A stretch of DNA of 40,521 nt from Microbacterium sp. B19 (lineage in GTDB: Bacteria > Actinomycetota > Actinomycetes > Actinomycetales > Microbacteriaceae). The number at the start of each line of letters is the position of its first letter. Position 1 is the stretch's first letter. Below, in pieces: positions 27,007-30,923 of the stretch. The stretch is taken from the NCBI RefSeq assembly GCF_000333395.1, contig NZ_BADA01000026.1:1-40521 (forward strand). The letters run 5' to 3'. The position numbers were made by a program, and so were the translations under genes. The notes below the pieces were generated by a model. That model did no database searches. It was given only the letters and a program-made list of their open reading frames with translations, and was not told the DNA's origin.

Positions 27007-27999
27007 TCAGTCGGTGGCATCCGGGATCGTCAGGTCGACCGTCGGCCAGGCCGGGAGCGGGTCGTCGAACGCGGCCCACGCGTCGGGCCCGGCGGCGAGC
27101 TCGTCGTCGGTCAGCGCTGCGAGGTCGAGGATGTGCCGCAGTCGCGGCGCCGAGATGTCGAGTCCGGTGAAGGCGATCTCCTGCCCGACGCCGAGGTTTC
27201 CGTCGTCCGCGCGGAGCGGTTCGATCCACATCGCCGAACCGACGTGCTCCCACCGGGCGAGGATGCCGGGGCGCGAGGCGAGTCGGCAGAACCCGGCGGA
27301 CCGGACCAGGCGCCCCGCCGCGCCGTGGTCGAGACGGTCGAGGGCGGTCTGCAGGCGGGCGGGGTGGAACGGCCGCACCTGGTCGTAGCGGAGCGTGCTG
27401 ACGCGGTTGTCGCGCATGTACGGGTCGTGCTCGTCGTTGAGCGCGCGGACCCACCCGGCGCGTTCGAGCACCTCGGTCTCGTGTTCGCGCGGGGCGGTGG
27501 CGGAGAGGTCGGCGCGGGCATCCCGGGTGAGTCGGAGCGTCGCGCCGGGATTGAGGTGCGACGCGAGAGCCATCTGCAAGGCCAGCGCGGCCGTCGGCAC
27601 CAGCTCCCAATTCACCCAGACGATGCGCGTGGCGATCTCGAGCGCCACGGCCGCCTGACGTGCACGGGCGCCGACGTCGCCGCGGGGGTCGCCCGGAGCG
27701 GTGGATGCCACGAGCGGAGCGTCGTCGAGGAGGTCGCCCATCATGTGCCGGGCGTCGACGACGCAGACCGCCTCGACCTCGACCCCTCCGCGCGCGGCGA
27801 TCGCGTGGATCAGGTCGACGTCGGTGCCGAGATCCACGACGACGCGCTCGCCGTCGATCCGGGAGCGCGGGTGGGGGAGCGGGTGCGCGGCGCTTCGGAC
27901 GACCGCGTGGAGCGGCCGGCCCAGGGCGACGGCCGCGCGCTCGGCGTAGGCGCGGCGTTCGGGTGCGCACACGCCCATCGTCACGATCGTCGTCTTCAT
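27007..27999 (-). CDS. COG0523/CobW-like protein without a GTPase P-loop, probably Zur-regulated
   Basis: A 330-residue protein whose C-terminal half matches the CobW C-terminal domain ([15 protein letters not shown]…[13 protein letters not shown]…[24 protein letters not shown]). The N-terminal half keeps the fold outline ([18 protein letters not shown] like the usual LNP element). It begins [19 protein letters not shown], without GxxGxGKT, and lacks both the NKxD base-recognition motif and the CxCC metal motif. It is thus a pseudo-GTPase relative of zinc metallochaperones. It is divergent from a cysteine-free bL36 gene across a Zur-like box, so expression under zinc limitation is inferred. 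Confidence 0.8.
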
Positions 28000-28034
28000 G
28001 GCATCCGCCCTTCGTTTGTCGGGAATCGGGGGAC

Positions 28035-28040
28035 AGCCTA
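28035..28040 (-). promoter_or_regulatory. -10 element of the COG0523-like gene
   Basis: On the - strand TAGGCT lies 9 bases downstream of the Zur-like box, which would then cover the -35 region. The start codon is 35 bases further on. Confidence 0.5.
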
Positions 28041-28049
28041 TCTTGTTAT

Positions 28050-28064
28050 TGAGAACGGTTATCA
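28050..28064. promoter_or_regulatory. Zur-like box
   Basis: TGAGAACGGTTATCA is a 15-base near-palindrome matching TGAnAACnnTTnTCA at every defined position, the form expected for zinc uptake regulators of the Fur family. It sits between the divergent COG0523-like and bL36 genes. A weaker look-alike, CGAGAACCATTCCCG, lies at about 28208. Confidence 0.75.
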
Positions 28065-28077
28065 ACAGGAGGATGCC

Positions 28078-28200
28078 ATGAAGGTCCGCAACTCGATCAA
28101 GTCGCTGAAGAACCAGCCCGGTGCGCAGGTGGTCCGCCGCCGCGGACGCGTGTTCGTGATCAACAAGCTGAACCCGCGGTGGAAGGGCCGCCAGGGCTGA
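28078..28200 (+). CDS. rpmJ: 50S ribosomal protein bL36, zinc-independent (C-) paralogue
   Basis: A 40-residue protein, [19 protein letters not shown]…[11 protein letters not shown], clearly bL36 of the longer type and containing no cysteine. The usual form holds a zinc ion; the cysteine-free paralogue replaces it under zinc starvation and frees zinc from ribosomes. AGGAGG precedes the ATG. The Zur-like box ends 14 bases before the start codon, consistent with repression when zinc is plentiful. Confidence 0.93.
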
Positions 28201-28229
28201 GCGCGAACGAGAACCATTCCCGAATACGT

Positions 28230-28257
28230 AGACACATTGCAATTCCCTTATGTGTCT
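28230..28257. promoter_or_regulatory. operator candidate for the ArsR/SmtB-type repressor
   Basis: AGACACAT and ATGTGTCT are perfect 8-bp arms 12 bases apart, ending 14 bases before the GTG of the repressor gene. Autoregulation through such imperfect dyads is usual for this family. Confidence 0.6.
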
Positions 28258-28271
28258 GGTCTTCTTGATGA

Positions 28272-28580
28272 GTGGACAAGATCGCCGGGCTCGCCGCCGC
28301 CGCGGAGCTGTTCAAGGTTCTCGGTAACGAGTCGCGCCTTGCGCTCGTCTGGTTGCTGAGCACGGGACCGCTCACCGTCGGCGCACTCGCCGACAAGGCC
28401 GGGCTGTCGCAACCGTTGGTGTCTCAGCACCTCCGGACATTGCGGCAGGCCGGGCTGGTGACCTCGGAGCGGGAGGGCAAGGAGATCCGATACGCCCTCG
28501 CCGATCAGCACGTCGCTCACGTCGTGCTCGACGCGATCGCCCACGTCCAGGAACCGAACGAGCAGGGGAACCAGCAATGA
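28272..28580 (+). CDS. SmtB-like ArsR-family metal-sensing repressor
   Basis: A 102-residue winged-helix repressor (FKVLGNESRLALVWLL, then GLSQPLVSQHLRTLRQAGLV as the recognition helix). There is no cysteine metal site. In the last helix D78, H80, H91 and E94 stand at spacings +2, +13 and +16, exactly the alpha-5 zinc site of SmtB (D104, H106, H117, E120). It should release its operator when zinc (or possibly nickel/cobalt) is high. The GTG start is followed by a stop overlapping the next gene as ATGA, so it is co-translated with the histidine-rich protein. Confidence 0.9.
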   Translation: MDKIAGLAAAAELFKVLGNESRLALVWLLSTGPLTVGALADKAGLSQPLVSQHLRTLRQAGLVTSEREGKEIRYALADQHVAHVVLDAIAHVQEPNEQGNQQ

Positions 28581-28873
28581 GCACCACCGAGACGCACGCG
28601 GAACACACCGTCGACGAGCACGCGCACGGCGACGAGTGCGGCCACCAGAAGATCGAGCACGGCGACCACGTGGACTACGTGCACGGGACGCACCACCACG
28701 CCCTCCACGGCGATCACTACGACGAGCACGAGTCGAAGGCCGAGCACGGCGTCGATGACCACGCACACGGCGACGACTGCGGACACGAGCCCGTCGCGCA
28801 CGACGACCACGTGGACTACGTCCACGACGGTCACCGTCACGCGGCGCACGCCGACCACTACGACGAGCACTGA
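28577..28873 (+). CDS. histidine-rich repeat protein, likely metal buffer
   Basis: A 98-residue protein in which 26 residues are His by my count, with many Asp/Glu and two Cys. It is an internal duplication of a ~47-residue unit. Each copy contains AEH-x-VD-E/D-HAHGD-E/D-CGH, an HVDYVH segment, and HYDEH at the end. No signal peptide or membrane segment is present, so it should be cytosolic. It is translationally coupled to the SmtB-like repressor and should be made when metal is in excess, serving as a zinc or nickel sink. No homologous characterised family comes to mind. Confidence 0.85.
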   Translation: MSTTETHAEHTVDEHAHGDECGHQKIEHGDHVDYVHGTHHHALHGDHYDEHESKAEHGVDDHAHGDDCGHEPVAHDDHVDYVHDGHRHAAHADHYDEH

Positions 28874-28900
28874 CGCCCACGTCGCTGCGCGGATACAGGC

Positions 28901-28938
28901 GATGACCCGTCCCTCCCTTTGGGGAAGGGCGGGTCATC
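28901..28938 (+). terminator. terminator of the repressor/His-rich operon
   Basis: The 17-base arms beginning GATGACCCG pair around TTTG with two imperfect positions, 27 bases after the stop, followed by TT. Confidence 0.75.
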
Positions 28939-28959
28939 TTCGCTGAGAGGCCAGAGTCT

Positions 28960-29796
28960 TCAGCCGACGAAGCGGTTGCTCTTGCCGAGATTGCAGGACT
29001 GGCAGAGCGTCTGGAGGTTTCCGAGTTCTGTTCGTCCACCGTGGCTCACCGGCACGATGTGGTCCACGTGCAGAACTGCGCCGGTCGATGCGGACGCTCC
29101 GCACATGCGGCATCGAGAACCATCGCGGCGGAGGATATCGGTCCGCATCTTCGGCGTGAGCAGGCTGCGTTCGCGACGGCGGAGGTACTCCGTGGTGGAC
29201 TTCGCGGCACGCTGACGTCGTGCGTCGTCGAGTCCCACGCGCAGCTCCGCGAAGCTCCAGTCGAGGTGTTTGCGGTAGGAATTGCGTCCCTGTGGACTCG
29301 TATAGCTGACGACTGCCGTCACGGTCGCCAGGGGTGTGGGAGCGCTCAGGATTCGATTGTGGAAGAGGCGCCGCTCGATCGTCGCGTATCTATCGGTTCG
29401 TATTCGCTCGTCTGTCGAGCGTCCGATCGACCGGCTCCCGAGTTCGGTCACGGCGTTGGTGTAGGAGGAGTACCGCTGCATTCGTTCGAGCCGCGCCTCG
29501 ATGTCGAACGCGAGTCGTGCCTCCTCGTCGAGAACGGCGTCCATGAGGAATGTGCGGAGCTGAAAGCGGTCGAACGCCGACTTCGACGTTGTTGTGGCGT
29601 GATAGCGGCGGGTGAGGACGGGGAGAGGCATCACCGACTCGGCGTATCGCGCGTTCACCTCGGTGAGTCCGGCGAGGGCAGCGCTGGTCCCTTCGACGAT
29701 CCGTCGTGCCCGATAGGCGAGCCCGAGCGGGATACCGGCGGCCGCGAGGACGAGGAGCGCGCCGGTTCCGATGACGAAGACGAGCTCAGCGCTCAC
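28960..29796 (-). CDS. membrane-anchored HNH endonuclease
   Basis: A 278-residue protein with one N-terminal membrane helix (AELVFVIGTGALLVLAAAGIP, residues 3-23) and a C-terminal HNH nuclease domain. The domain shows CRMC, HVDHIVP, an Asn in LGNLQTLC and CQSCN: two zinc-binding CxxC pairs around the catalytic His. The middle is helical and Arg-rich. With so short an N-terminus, the nuclease side may be cytosolic; topology needs testing. The GTG start overlaps the end of the SNase gene by 11 bases, so the two nucleases are coupled. Base composition is somewhat less G+C-rich than the neighbours, hinting at transfer. Confidence 0.85.
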   Translation of the reverse strand: MSAELVFVIGTGALLVLAAAGIPLGLAYRARRIVEGTSAALAGLTEVNARYAESVMPLPVLTRRYHATTTSKSAFDRFQLRTFLMDAVLDEEARLAFDIEARLERMQRYSSYTNAVTELGSRSIGRSTDERIRTDRYATIERRLFHNRILSAPTPLATVTAVVSYTSPQGRNSYRKHLDWSFAELRVGLDDARRQRAAKSTTEYLRRRERSLLTPKMRTDILRRDGSRCRMCGASASTGAVLHVDHIVPVSHGGRTELGNLQTLCQSCNLGKSNRFVG

Positions 29797-30823
29797 AGTC
29801 CCACCCGTCGTGGTCGGCATCCCGGTACCAGTCGTATTCCGGGTCCACGCCGCTCTGATACGGGCCGTAGCCGTTGGCGATGGCTTCCTTGCACGTCTTG
29901 AAGCGCGGATCGTTCGCCGGAGCCGGGTCCGCCGGTGCGGGCTCGGGCTGGGCGGGCTGGGGTGCGGGGTCCGCCGGCGCAGGCTGCGCGGGTGCCGGCT
30001 CCGCGGGGGCGGGCGCCGGCTCGGCCGGCATCGGAGCAGAGTCGTCCACGCTGATGTAGGTCGCCTGCAGCGGGTGCGAGCCGTATCCGTCGCGGCCGTC
30101 GTACCGGGCGATCGCCCAGCCGCTGCGAAGCATGTGCGTGCCGGCATCCTCGCCGTTGACCTGGACGTATCGGAGGAGGCGCCCGTACTGGTCCTTGTCG
30201 TCGCGGCCGGGAACTGAGACGAGGACCGCGCCGCCGGGGGCGAGGAACGAGGTCAGCTCGGTGGTCGCCTGGTCGTATCCCCAGGAGCCCGACTCGGGAG
30301 CGTCGATTCCGATCAGGCGCACCTTGCCGATGTTCGTGTCGATCGTGTCGCCGTCGATGACGGAAACGATCTGAACGGGTGTCGGAGTCGGAGTCGGAGT
30401 CGGAGTCTGAGTCGGGGTGGGAGTGGGAGTCGGGCGAGGCGTCGCCGACGCTGCCGGTGTGGCGGCGCTCACCGGTGAGGCGACCAGAGCGACGGGCGTC
30501 TTCGGCGGGCTGTTGACGACGGCGGCGTTCGTGATTCCTGCCGTGGCGAGGAAGCCCACCGCGGCGACGGCCGTGACCCACGCAGCGGCTTTGCGGCTAC
30601 GAAAGCGCAACCACGTCCGGCTGTTCTTCGCGAGCGCGACGATTCCCGTGATGAGAATGGCCAGGAAGACGACGGCGAAAATTGGCGACAGGAGCAGCAC
30701 GACGATCGCCAGCAGGATGCCGAGGATTACCCACAACCACACCGGAATGCGCCTCTTGCCCCGACGGTTTGCGGCCGCGGACGATGGAAATTCTGCGCCT
30801 GCGCGCACGTTCGAACGAGTCAT
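29786..30823 (-). CDS. membrane-anchored thermonuclease with Excalibur domain
   Basis: A 345-residue protein with hydrophobic segments at about residues 27-67 and 78-98, then a TPTPTP linker at about 131-149. A staphylococcal-nuclease fold at about 150-262 has DGDTIDT, RLIGIDAPE and DQYGRLLRYV, including the catalytic Arg/Asp positions. A Pro/Ala/Glu repeat linker follows, then a C-terminal Excalibur calcium-binding motif (DADHDGWDCE). It should cut nucleic acids at the outer surface with Ca2+. I prefer the ATG over a TTG 12 codons upstream. The linker is encoded by hexanucleotide repeats and can change length without loss of frame. Confidence 0.88.
   Translation of the reverse strand: MTRSNVRAGAEFPSSAAANRRGKRRIPVWLWVILGILLAIVVLLLSPIFAVVFLAILITGIVALAKNSRTWLRFRSRKAAAWVTAVAAVGFLATAGITNAAVVNSPPKTPVALVASPVSAATPAASATPRPTPTPTPTQTPTPTPTPTPVQIVSVIDGDTIDTNIGKVRLIGIDAPESGSWGYDQATTELTSFLAPGGAVLVSVPGRDDKDQYGRLLRYVQVNGEDAGTHMLRSGWAIARYDGRDGYGSHPLQATYISVDDSAPMPAEPAPAPAEPAPAQPAPADPAPQPAQPEPAPADPAPANDPRFKTCKEAIANGYGPYQSGVDPEYDWYRDADHDGWDCER
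30381..30433. repeat. GGAGTC hexanucleotide microsatellite
   Basis: Five to nine near-perfect 6-base units encode the TPTPTP linker of the thermonuclease on the - strand. Length changes stay in frame. Confidence 0.75.
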
Positions 30824-30923
30824 GAATGCGCCCCCCGACGCGGGGGACGGAATCCCCAATAAGAACGAACAATAGCGCGCCGGGAGGCGTCACTGATGCC
30901 GCGGTAATTGCAGACCCGTGCCG

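Follow-up and report, generated by a model that had tools for sequence, protein, structure and literature searches.

Two adjoining modules in Microbacterium, a cysteine-free bL36 pair and an smtB–histidine-rich operon, with a tentative case for one promoter read by two zinc sensors

Results

Four Genes in Two Modules

We analyze a 40,521-nucleotide stretch of Microbacterium sp. B19 (contig NZ_BADA01000026.1; hereafter "the window," to which all coordinates refer), and in particular four consecutive genes within it. The first, on the minus strand (27007–27999, ATG at 27999), encodes a COG0523-like protein of 330 amino acids. Divergent from it is a plus-strand gene (28078–28200) for a cysteine-free (type B, or C-) ribosomal protein bL36, and between the two lies a Zur-like site, TGAGAACGGTTATCA (28050–28064; box 1). 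Two further plus-strand genes follow: an ArsR/SmtB-type repressor gene (28272–28580; here smtB) and, overlapping it by ATGA, a gene (28577–28873; here his) for a putative zinc buffer of 98 amino acids, which contains 26 histidines and two cysteines in two tandem modules. The gap between bL36 and smtB holds a second Zur-like box, CGAGAACCATTCCCG (28208–28222; box 2), and a putative SmtB operator, the inverted repeat AGACACA-N14-TGTGTCT (28230–28257), which contains ATTGCAATNNNNTTATGTGT (28236–28255). The likely promoter (28237–28265, plus strand) is assigned from conservation; it consists of a -35-like TTGCAA (28237–28242), 17 nucleotides, and a weak -10-like TCTTCT (28260–28265).

A first-pass annotation of this DNA had placed the four genes at these positions and in these frames. 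It had also described a near-perfect Zur-like box between the bL36 and COG0523-like genes, the α5 spacing D78/H80/H91/E94 in the repressor, the ATGA overlap with a histidine-rich gene of the stated size and composition, and the inverted repeat. All of this we recover, box 1 being an exact pattern match; the four genes and box 1 are real. Two features were overlooked, namely box 2 and the absence of a P-loop from the COG0523-like protein.

The four-gene order, which the first-pass annotation suggested looking for in relatives, recurs. A scan with the SmtB protein gives 63 loci, 21 of which (L003–L023) carry the complete set of four, arranged and oriented as in the window. The histidine-rich protein is present in 35 of 198 Microbacterium genomes, and we took one locus from each of 30 of these (all except G061, G080, G120, G140, and G195). 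The COG0523-like, bL36, and his genes stand in the window order in 19 of the 30 loci, 16 with smtB between them and three (L087, L088, L090) without it. One locus (L101) has all four genes in another orientation, and ten (L092–L100, L102) show no bL36 pair within approximately 1.5 kb, L102 showing no smtB as well. Among the loci of the SmtB scan, smtB and his occur without the bL36 pair, in the sequence at hand, in L024, L025, L028, and L029; L026 and L056 have the modules next to each other but oriented differently. The four-gene cluster consists of two modules, which adjoin in several arrangements, and smtB–his also occurs alone. The proposal that one cluster unites both arms of zinc homeostasis holds insofar as genes of that appearance adjoin and their order recurs; it does not hold as a description of a fixed unit, the two modules being found apart as well. 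The COG0523-like family occurs in 57 of the 198 Microbacterium genomes; of the 35 that carry his, 32 have it (hypergeometric p-value 5e-18, ignoring phylogeny).

One of the 21 full loci, L013, has only a partial COG0523-like match and a partly deleted box 1, and it lacks box 2, the operator, and the smtB start codon; because of these deletions we regard it as decayed or misassembled. L013 and its copy L091 come from a metagenome-assembled genome.

The smtB–his Promoter

The smtB product belongs to the ArsR/SmtB family by both Pfam (PF01022, 53.2 bits; cut-off 22) and NCBIfam (NF033788, 94.6 bits; cut-off 55). The α5 pattern D-x-H-x10-H-x2-E/H, an arrangement that we take to be that of SmtB, is found in 53 of 54 relatives, either residue being accepted at the last position; the exception is the frame-broken L056. 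The closest PDB sequence match (8qkf, presumably mycobacterial SmtB; E-value 4.1e-21) has the same D-x-H..H..E helix. To compare promoters, we collected every smtB-like relative in L003–L029, L056, L071, and L074–L102 (54 loci, 43 distinct promoters). An SmtB-type operator with at least 11 of 16 matches is present in 40 of the 43. The window genome contains a single copy of it at up to two mismatches, and no other SmtB target appears at that threshold. Metal would presumably release SmtB from this putative operator. In a 22-locus alignment the bL36–smtB gap has a conserved CGAGAACCGTTCCCG, then ATTGCAAT, then a TTATGTGT-like stretch, none of them in L013. Over 24 four-gene loci (without L013), column conservation is 0.95 in box 2 and 0.99 in TTGCAAT, compared with 0.80 for the gap and 0.64 for the part upstream. 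The GTG start of smtB is possibly leaderless, and the window contains no RNA family at gathering thresholds.

Box 2 was scored against the published actinobacterial Zur core, with a maximum of 10. A 15-mer that lies exactly 14 nucleotides before a -35-like TTGC(AA) scores at least 6 in 38 of the 43 distinct promoters; random positions, in a set without L013, L027, and L098, score at least 7 at a frequency of 0.0009. When 39 promoters (L013, L027, L098, and near-duplicates excluded) were grouped at 80% SmtB identity, 13 clusters resulted. Box 2 is present in 11 of them; in ten it outscores every other one of 165 positions, and in one it ties for the top. With L027 and L098 added as clusters of their own, the count is 11 of 15, and these exceptions leave our assessment as it was. 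The box is also present where no bL36 gene lies upstream (L026, L028, L029, L092–L097, L099–L101). We considered whether box 2 might be a bL36 terminator and rejected this: there is no terminator-like site in 27990–28960, and the box precedes smtB in those loci without bL36 upstream.

Three loci have lost their smtB. Their operator positions score 7–9 of 16, compared with 13–16 in 24 smtB-containing four-gene loci (L013, L027, and L098 excluded). In L088 and L090, box 2 is intact at 15 of 15 positions of the clade consensus although smtB and the operator are gone. Given these separate fates, the most economical interpretation makes the operator a site for SmtB and box 2 a site for something else, by its sequence Zur. 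A role for box 2 as a second SmtB site is unlikely for the same reason, L087, where both elements are lost, being not decisive here. From these comparisons we infer that the smtB–his promoter is controlled by both Zur and SmtB. The first-pass annotation assigned scarcity to the first half of the cluster and excess to the second. With a Zur-like box of its own in the "excess" half, the two halves need not obey separate sensors.

Several observations weigh against control by both regulators. Box 2 of the window itself scores only 7 of 10, whereas relatives reach 9. It fails in five of the 43 promoters (L013, L024, L027, which has no his gene, L056, and L098), and it is not seen in distant smtB–his promoters outside Micrococcales. 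The operator is missing from L013, L027, and L098 despite the presence of smtB. In L087 both box 2 and the operator are lost, and the losses in L088 and L090, which look related, may be one event. A sigma-70 consensus scan of 27990–28960 gave no site and leaves the -35 and -10 assignments unsupported. Finally, no Zur gene is found in the window's own incomplete assembly, where the znu contig ends inside znuB.

Box 1, znuA, and Zur

That assembly (G000) has 3.65 Mb and is 87% complete. The pattern TGAKAANNNTTMTCA has three sites in all of it, compared with none for a reversed-pattern control. One is box 1, another lies directly upstream of znuA, and the third is on contig C469. The 15-mers of box 1 and znuA (ZnuA recognized by eye) are identical, which puts box 1 above chance level. 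It matches the actinobacterial 15-base-pair 7-1-7 Zur box, TGANAANNNTTNTCA, exactly, and is recognizable in 21 of 22 aligned loci, being partly deleted in L013. The third site (C469:22842–22856; L070) has in its vicinity a gene whose large secreted product is, as judged by eye, wall-anchor-like.

We scanned two related genomes as well. At up to one mismatch G007 has 11 sites (control: 3) and G069 has 10 (control: 4), of which eight and three, respectively, are exact. In both genomes one exact match precedes znuA and another is box 1; in G007 a further exact site stands before the gene of a canonical COG0523 protein. For the remaining exact sites, five in G007 and one in G069, no linked zinc gene is evident. 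Both genomes have a Zur-type protein gene directly after znuB (ZnuB and Zur by eye). The only Fur-family match in the window assembly, on contig C345, is beside katG (by eye), and for this reason we rejected it as Zur. With the znu contig broken within znuB and the sole Fur-family gene adjoining katG, Zur is presumed for the window genome.

Cysteine-Free bL36 and Its P-Loop-Less Partner

The bL36 of the window matches PF00444 (67.8 bits) and, above the curated cut-off of 70, NF002021 (77.4 bits), the type B model; it contains no cysteine. The second bL36 of the genome keeps three cysteines and a histidine, which we take to be the usual zinc ligands. A cysteine-free bL36 gene is divergent from the COG0523-like gene in all 22 of the best loci of the latter family (L133–L154) and is nearby in three of the eight weaker loci with partial protein matches (L155–L162). 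In L118, from another order of the class, a cysteine-free bL36 gene directly precedes his; an ArsR-operator-like repeat lies between them, and no smtB is seen.

The first-pass annotation called the partner protein (P0001) COG0523-like. CobW_C is the only Pfam family above cut-off (PF07683, 33.7 bits; cut-off 22). The CobW N-domain (PF02492) gives no match, and both Walker A and CxCC are absent. Relatives occur in 30 of 297 genomes of the order. Walker A is missing from 21 of the 22 best family loci, L154 retaining it, and CxCC from all 30 family loci. Two loci with broken frames were examined in six frames; L150 has no Walker A upstream of the match (there is one further downstream) and L152 has none. 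At the P-loop position there is instead a G-x-C-x-x-E-R-like motif, whose G, E, and R do not vary among 15 sequences and, among 27, are conserved to at least 90%.

An AlphaFold2 model built from 27 sequences has a mean predicted local distance difference test (pLDDT) score of 85.8; an earlier model from 15 sequences was poor (58.6). Its best fold match is YjiA (Foldseek E-value 5.8e-11; Z-score 11.4 over 241 residues, root-mean-square deviation 9.4), followed by HypB (Z-score 9.4). With these as the best matches, the protein seems to retain the G3E fold without a normal nucleotide site. Translation GTPases also score approximately 8, which we take as general G-domain likeness.

COG0523 members have been identified elsewhere by CXCC together with a P-loop domain (PMC2770081; this and the other papers below are cited from the portions of their text available to us). 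A canonical zinc-delivering COG0523 GTPase was rejected for P0001, with Walker A, CxCC, and the PF02492 match all missing. Consequently, the first-pass claim that the first half of the cluster "saves and delivers zinc" is supported as to saving, given the cysteine-free bL36 behind a Zur box, but not as to delivery. Genome G007 encodes a canonical COG0523 protein in addition to a P-loop-less one; the former has the motifs GFLGSGKT and CICC, and its gene follows a Zur box of its own (L226).

An MRF-like ribosome factor appears likelier, since MRF proteins also lack Walker A: it is absent from all 12 MRF or MRF-like loci examined, comprising the seven genomes above the cut-off of the NCBIfam MRF model (of 148 in the class) and five sub-cut-off loci, two of which have CxCC. 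According to a review, Mrf helps Mpy to bind C- ribosomes (PMC13418864). In Mycobacterium smegmatis, rpmB (C-) and MSMEG_6069 (MRF) are each listed with a Zur site (PMC7174638), and our comparison with that list indicates one site read from both strands. As in mycobacteria, then, C- ribosomal and COG0523 genes diverge from one Zur box, here bL36 and P0001 from box 1. Here, however, bL36 replaces bL28, and, as a point against the assignment, P0001 is far below the MRF equivalog cut-off (NF047431, 46.5 compared with 375 bits). P0001 would be MRF-like, not a member of MRF. A comparative study lists ribosomal protein paralogs, RpmJ among them, in Zur regulons of a set of actinobacteria.

The Histidine-Rich Family

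The his product consists of two modules of the type HGxxCGHxxxxHxxHxDYVHxxHxHxxHxxHYDEH. Among 15 aligned members, 25 of the 26 histidines and both cysteines are invariant. Searches of Pfam, NCBIfam, and PDB return nothing for the protein at E ≤ 1, and it is not cysteine-rich in the manner of the metallothioneins SmtA and BmtA. The family occurs in 45 of 396 Actinomycetota genomes. No plasmid-borne relative is found at E ≤ 1e-5 by BLAST with the low-complexity filter on. In the window genome a 33-residue stretch at a contig end (C500:3–101) is 97% identical to the protein and is possibly an assembly duplicate or a strain mixture.

We examined the neighborhoods of 29 distant members (L104–L132), identifying SmtB-like genes by tblastn with the window SmtB (P0003), and neighbors other than bL36 by eye. 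An SmtB-like gene is near in 12, 11 of them in smtB–his order and L119 reversed. In three (L122, L129, L131) a ZnuB-like permease carries the histidine module as a C-terminal fusion. Four (L125, L126, L129, L131) have an adjacent Fur-type gene, which follows the fusion in L129 and L131. A cysteine-free bL36 gene is near in one (L118), and in L130 and L132, both beside an SmtB-like gene, the protein has a cysteine-rich, metallothionein-like tail. The other loci have none of these neighbors within approximately 1.5 kb, except for a permease-like gene near L115. These neighborhoods fit zinc binding.

Discussion

A Proposed Mechanism

On balance we lean towards a reading in which the locus consists of two back-to-back zinc modules: a Zur-repressed pair of bL36 and an MRF-like protein, and an SmtB-operated, Zur-assisted, histidine-rich zinc buffer. 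When zinc is short, Zur would leave the single box shared by the divergent genes. The cysteine-free bL36 would then be made and would save the zinc that the normal bL36 binds, and the P-loop-less COG0523 protein would most likely have the altered ribosome as its target, like MRF in mycobacteria. The smtB–his operon would be autoregulated, apo-SmtB occupying the operator that overlaps the promoter. Once zinc is plentiful, SmtB would be released and the histidine-rich protein made, which would bind the surplus.

Box 2, at 14 nucleotides from the -35-like element, would add control by Zur, and we favor Zur as an activator of smtB–his by position and sense. Given the location of box 2 ahead of the -35-like element, comparable to that of the boxes at zitB and bmtA, zinc-loaded Zur more likely assists RNA polymerase here than represses. 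If loaded Zur helps polymerase and SmtB must also leave, the buffer would require two reports of zinc. It is tempting to go further and to see in this promoter an AND gate, in which Zur activates and SmtB represses a histidine-rich zinc-buffer family, beside a Zur-repressed cysteine-free bL36 with a P-loop-less COG0523 ribosome-factor partner of Micrococcales; this full version we offer only tentatively.

Relation to Known Systems

In cyanobacteria, smtB–smtA pairs SmtB with a metallothionein under its control. The locus resembles that system in having an SmtB-type repressor beside a small metal-buffer gene, with the operator over the promoter. It differs in that the buffer is histidine-rich with two cysteines, smtB and his overlap in one operon, and a Zur-like box lies upstream. 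SmtB repression of metallothioneins is mentioned in PMC9337993, which also describes the activation of the metallothionein gene bmtA by Zur in Synechococcus WH8102. In Streptomyces coelicolor, an activating Zur box lies 8 nucleotides upstream of the -35 element of zitB (PMC5472717). Like zitB and bmtA, the window would have a Zur box beyond the -35 element of a zinc-excess gene, and the accessible portions of these two papers indicate no SmtB at either promoter. The gap of 14 nucleotides here, compared with 8 at zitB, counts against the analogy; moreover, bmtA has a second box over its promoter, and activation at smtB–his is something we only infer.

The smtB–zur operon of M. smegmatis is controlled by both Zur and SmtB (PMC7174638), and the smtB promoter of the window would be under the same two regulators. 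There the partner gene is zur instead of a buffer, no SmtB motif is found according to the text at hand, and Zur restrains the operon, which argues against activation here. Joint control of one operon by Zur and SmtB is thus already on record. In titles and the beginnings of abstracts (a coverage outside which most subscription journals fall), we found no operon of smtB and a histidine-rich gene with a Zur box. The pieces are of known kinds; what is new is the candidate two-sensor promoter, the unnamed family of putative buffers, and the P-loop-less partner of bL36. If the proposal is true, the sensing of scarcity and of excess is merged on one promoter, a zinc-linked family without a Pfam, NCBIfam, or PDB match is named across Actinomycetota, and the mycobacterial system for the zinc-starved ribosome (C- proteins and MRF) extends to bL36 in other Actinomycetota.

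Alternative Explanations

Zur might instead repress from box 2 in zinc-replete cells and SmtB in zinc-poor ones, so that smtB–his would be expressed at a near-constant or mid-range level, which is what has been reported for smtB–zur of M. smegmatis. Zur is usually a repressor, and the M. smegmatis smtB–zur promoter is more active in zur and in smtB mutants (PMC7174638, from the text available). We nevertheless consider dual repression doubtful: a box at a constant distance of 14 nucleotides before the -35-like element is a layout suited to activation, and a buffer switched off at high zinc makes little sense.

It is unlikely, in our view, that the histidine-rich protein works in times of scarcity, as a reserve or acceptor of zinc, expressed by read-through from the Zur-controlled bL36 promoter and passing zinc on to clients or receiving it from the importer. 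The lack of a terminator-like site between 27990 and 28960 would permit such read-through, and his directly follows bL36 in L087, L088, L090, and L118. The fusions to ZnuB-like permeases, which hint at a role of the module in uptake and so tell against a buffer for excess, and the neighboring Fur-type genes point the same way. On the other hand, his follows an SmtB-like gene in 11 of the 29 distant loci, and the SmtB-type operator is kept in most of the distinct smtB promoters (40 of 43).

The four-gene order might also be passively inherited in one Microbacterium clade and have no further meaning. The full four-gene loci of the cluster test do form one SmtB cluster, the 12 others being surrounded differently, and the smtB–his pair often stands alone. 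Yet L026, L056, and L101 have the modules side by side in other orientations, bL36 precedes his in L118, and the two families co-occur at the rate given above, phylogeny again ignored. We think that passive linkage is improbable as the whole explanation.

That the sensed metal is nickel, cobalt, or cadmium, with a nickel or cobalt buffer only incidentally near zinc genes, is very unlikely: histidine-rich proteins often bind nickel and the metal cannot be told from an ArsR sequence alone, but the α5 pattern is nearly invariant, a Zur-like box lies at the same promoter, and the family is linked to Fur-type genes, ZnuB, and cysteine-free bL36.

Outside the four genes, an open reading frame at 29786–30859 on the minus strand appears, by eye, to encode a secreted thermonuclease-like protein with an excalibur-type tail.

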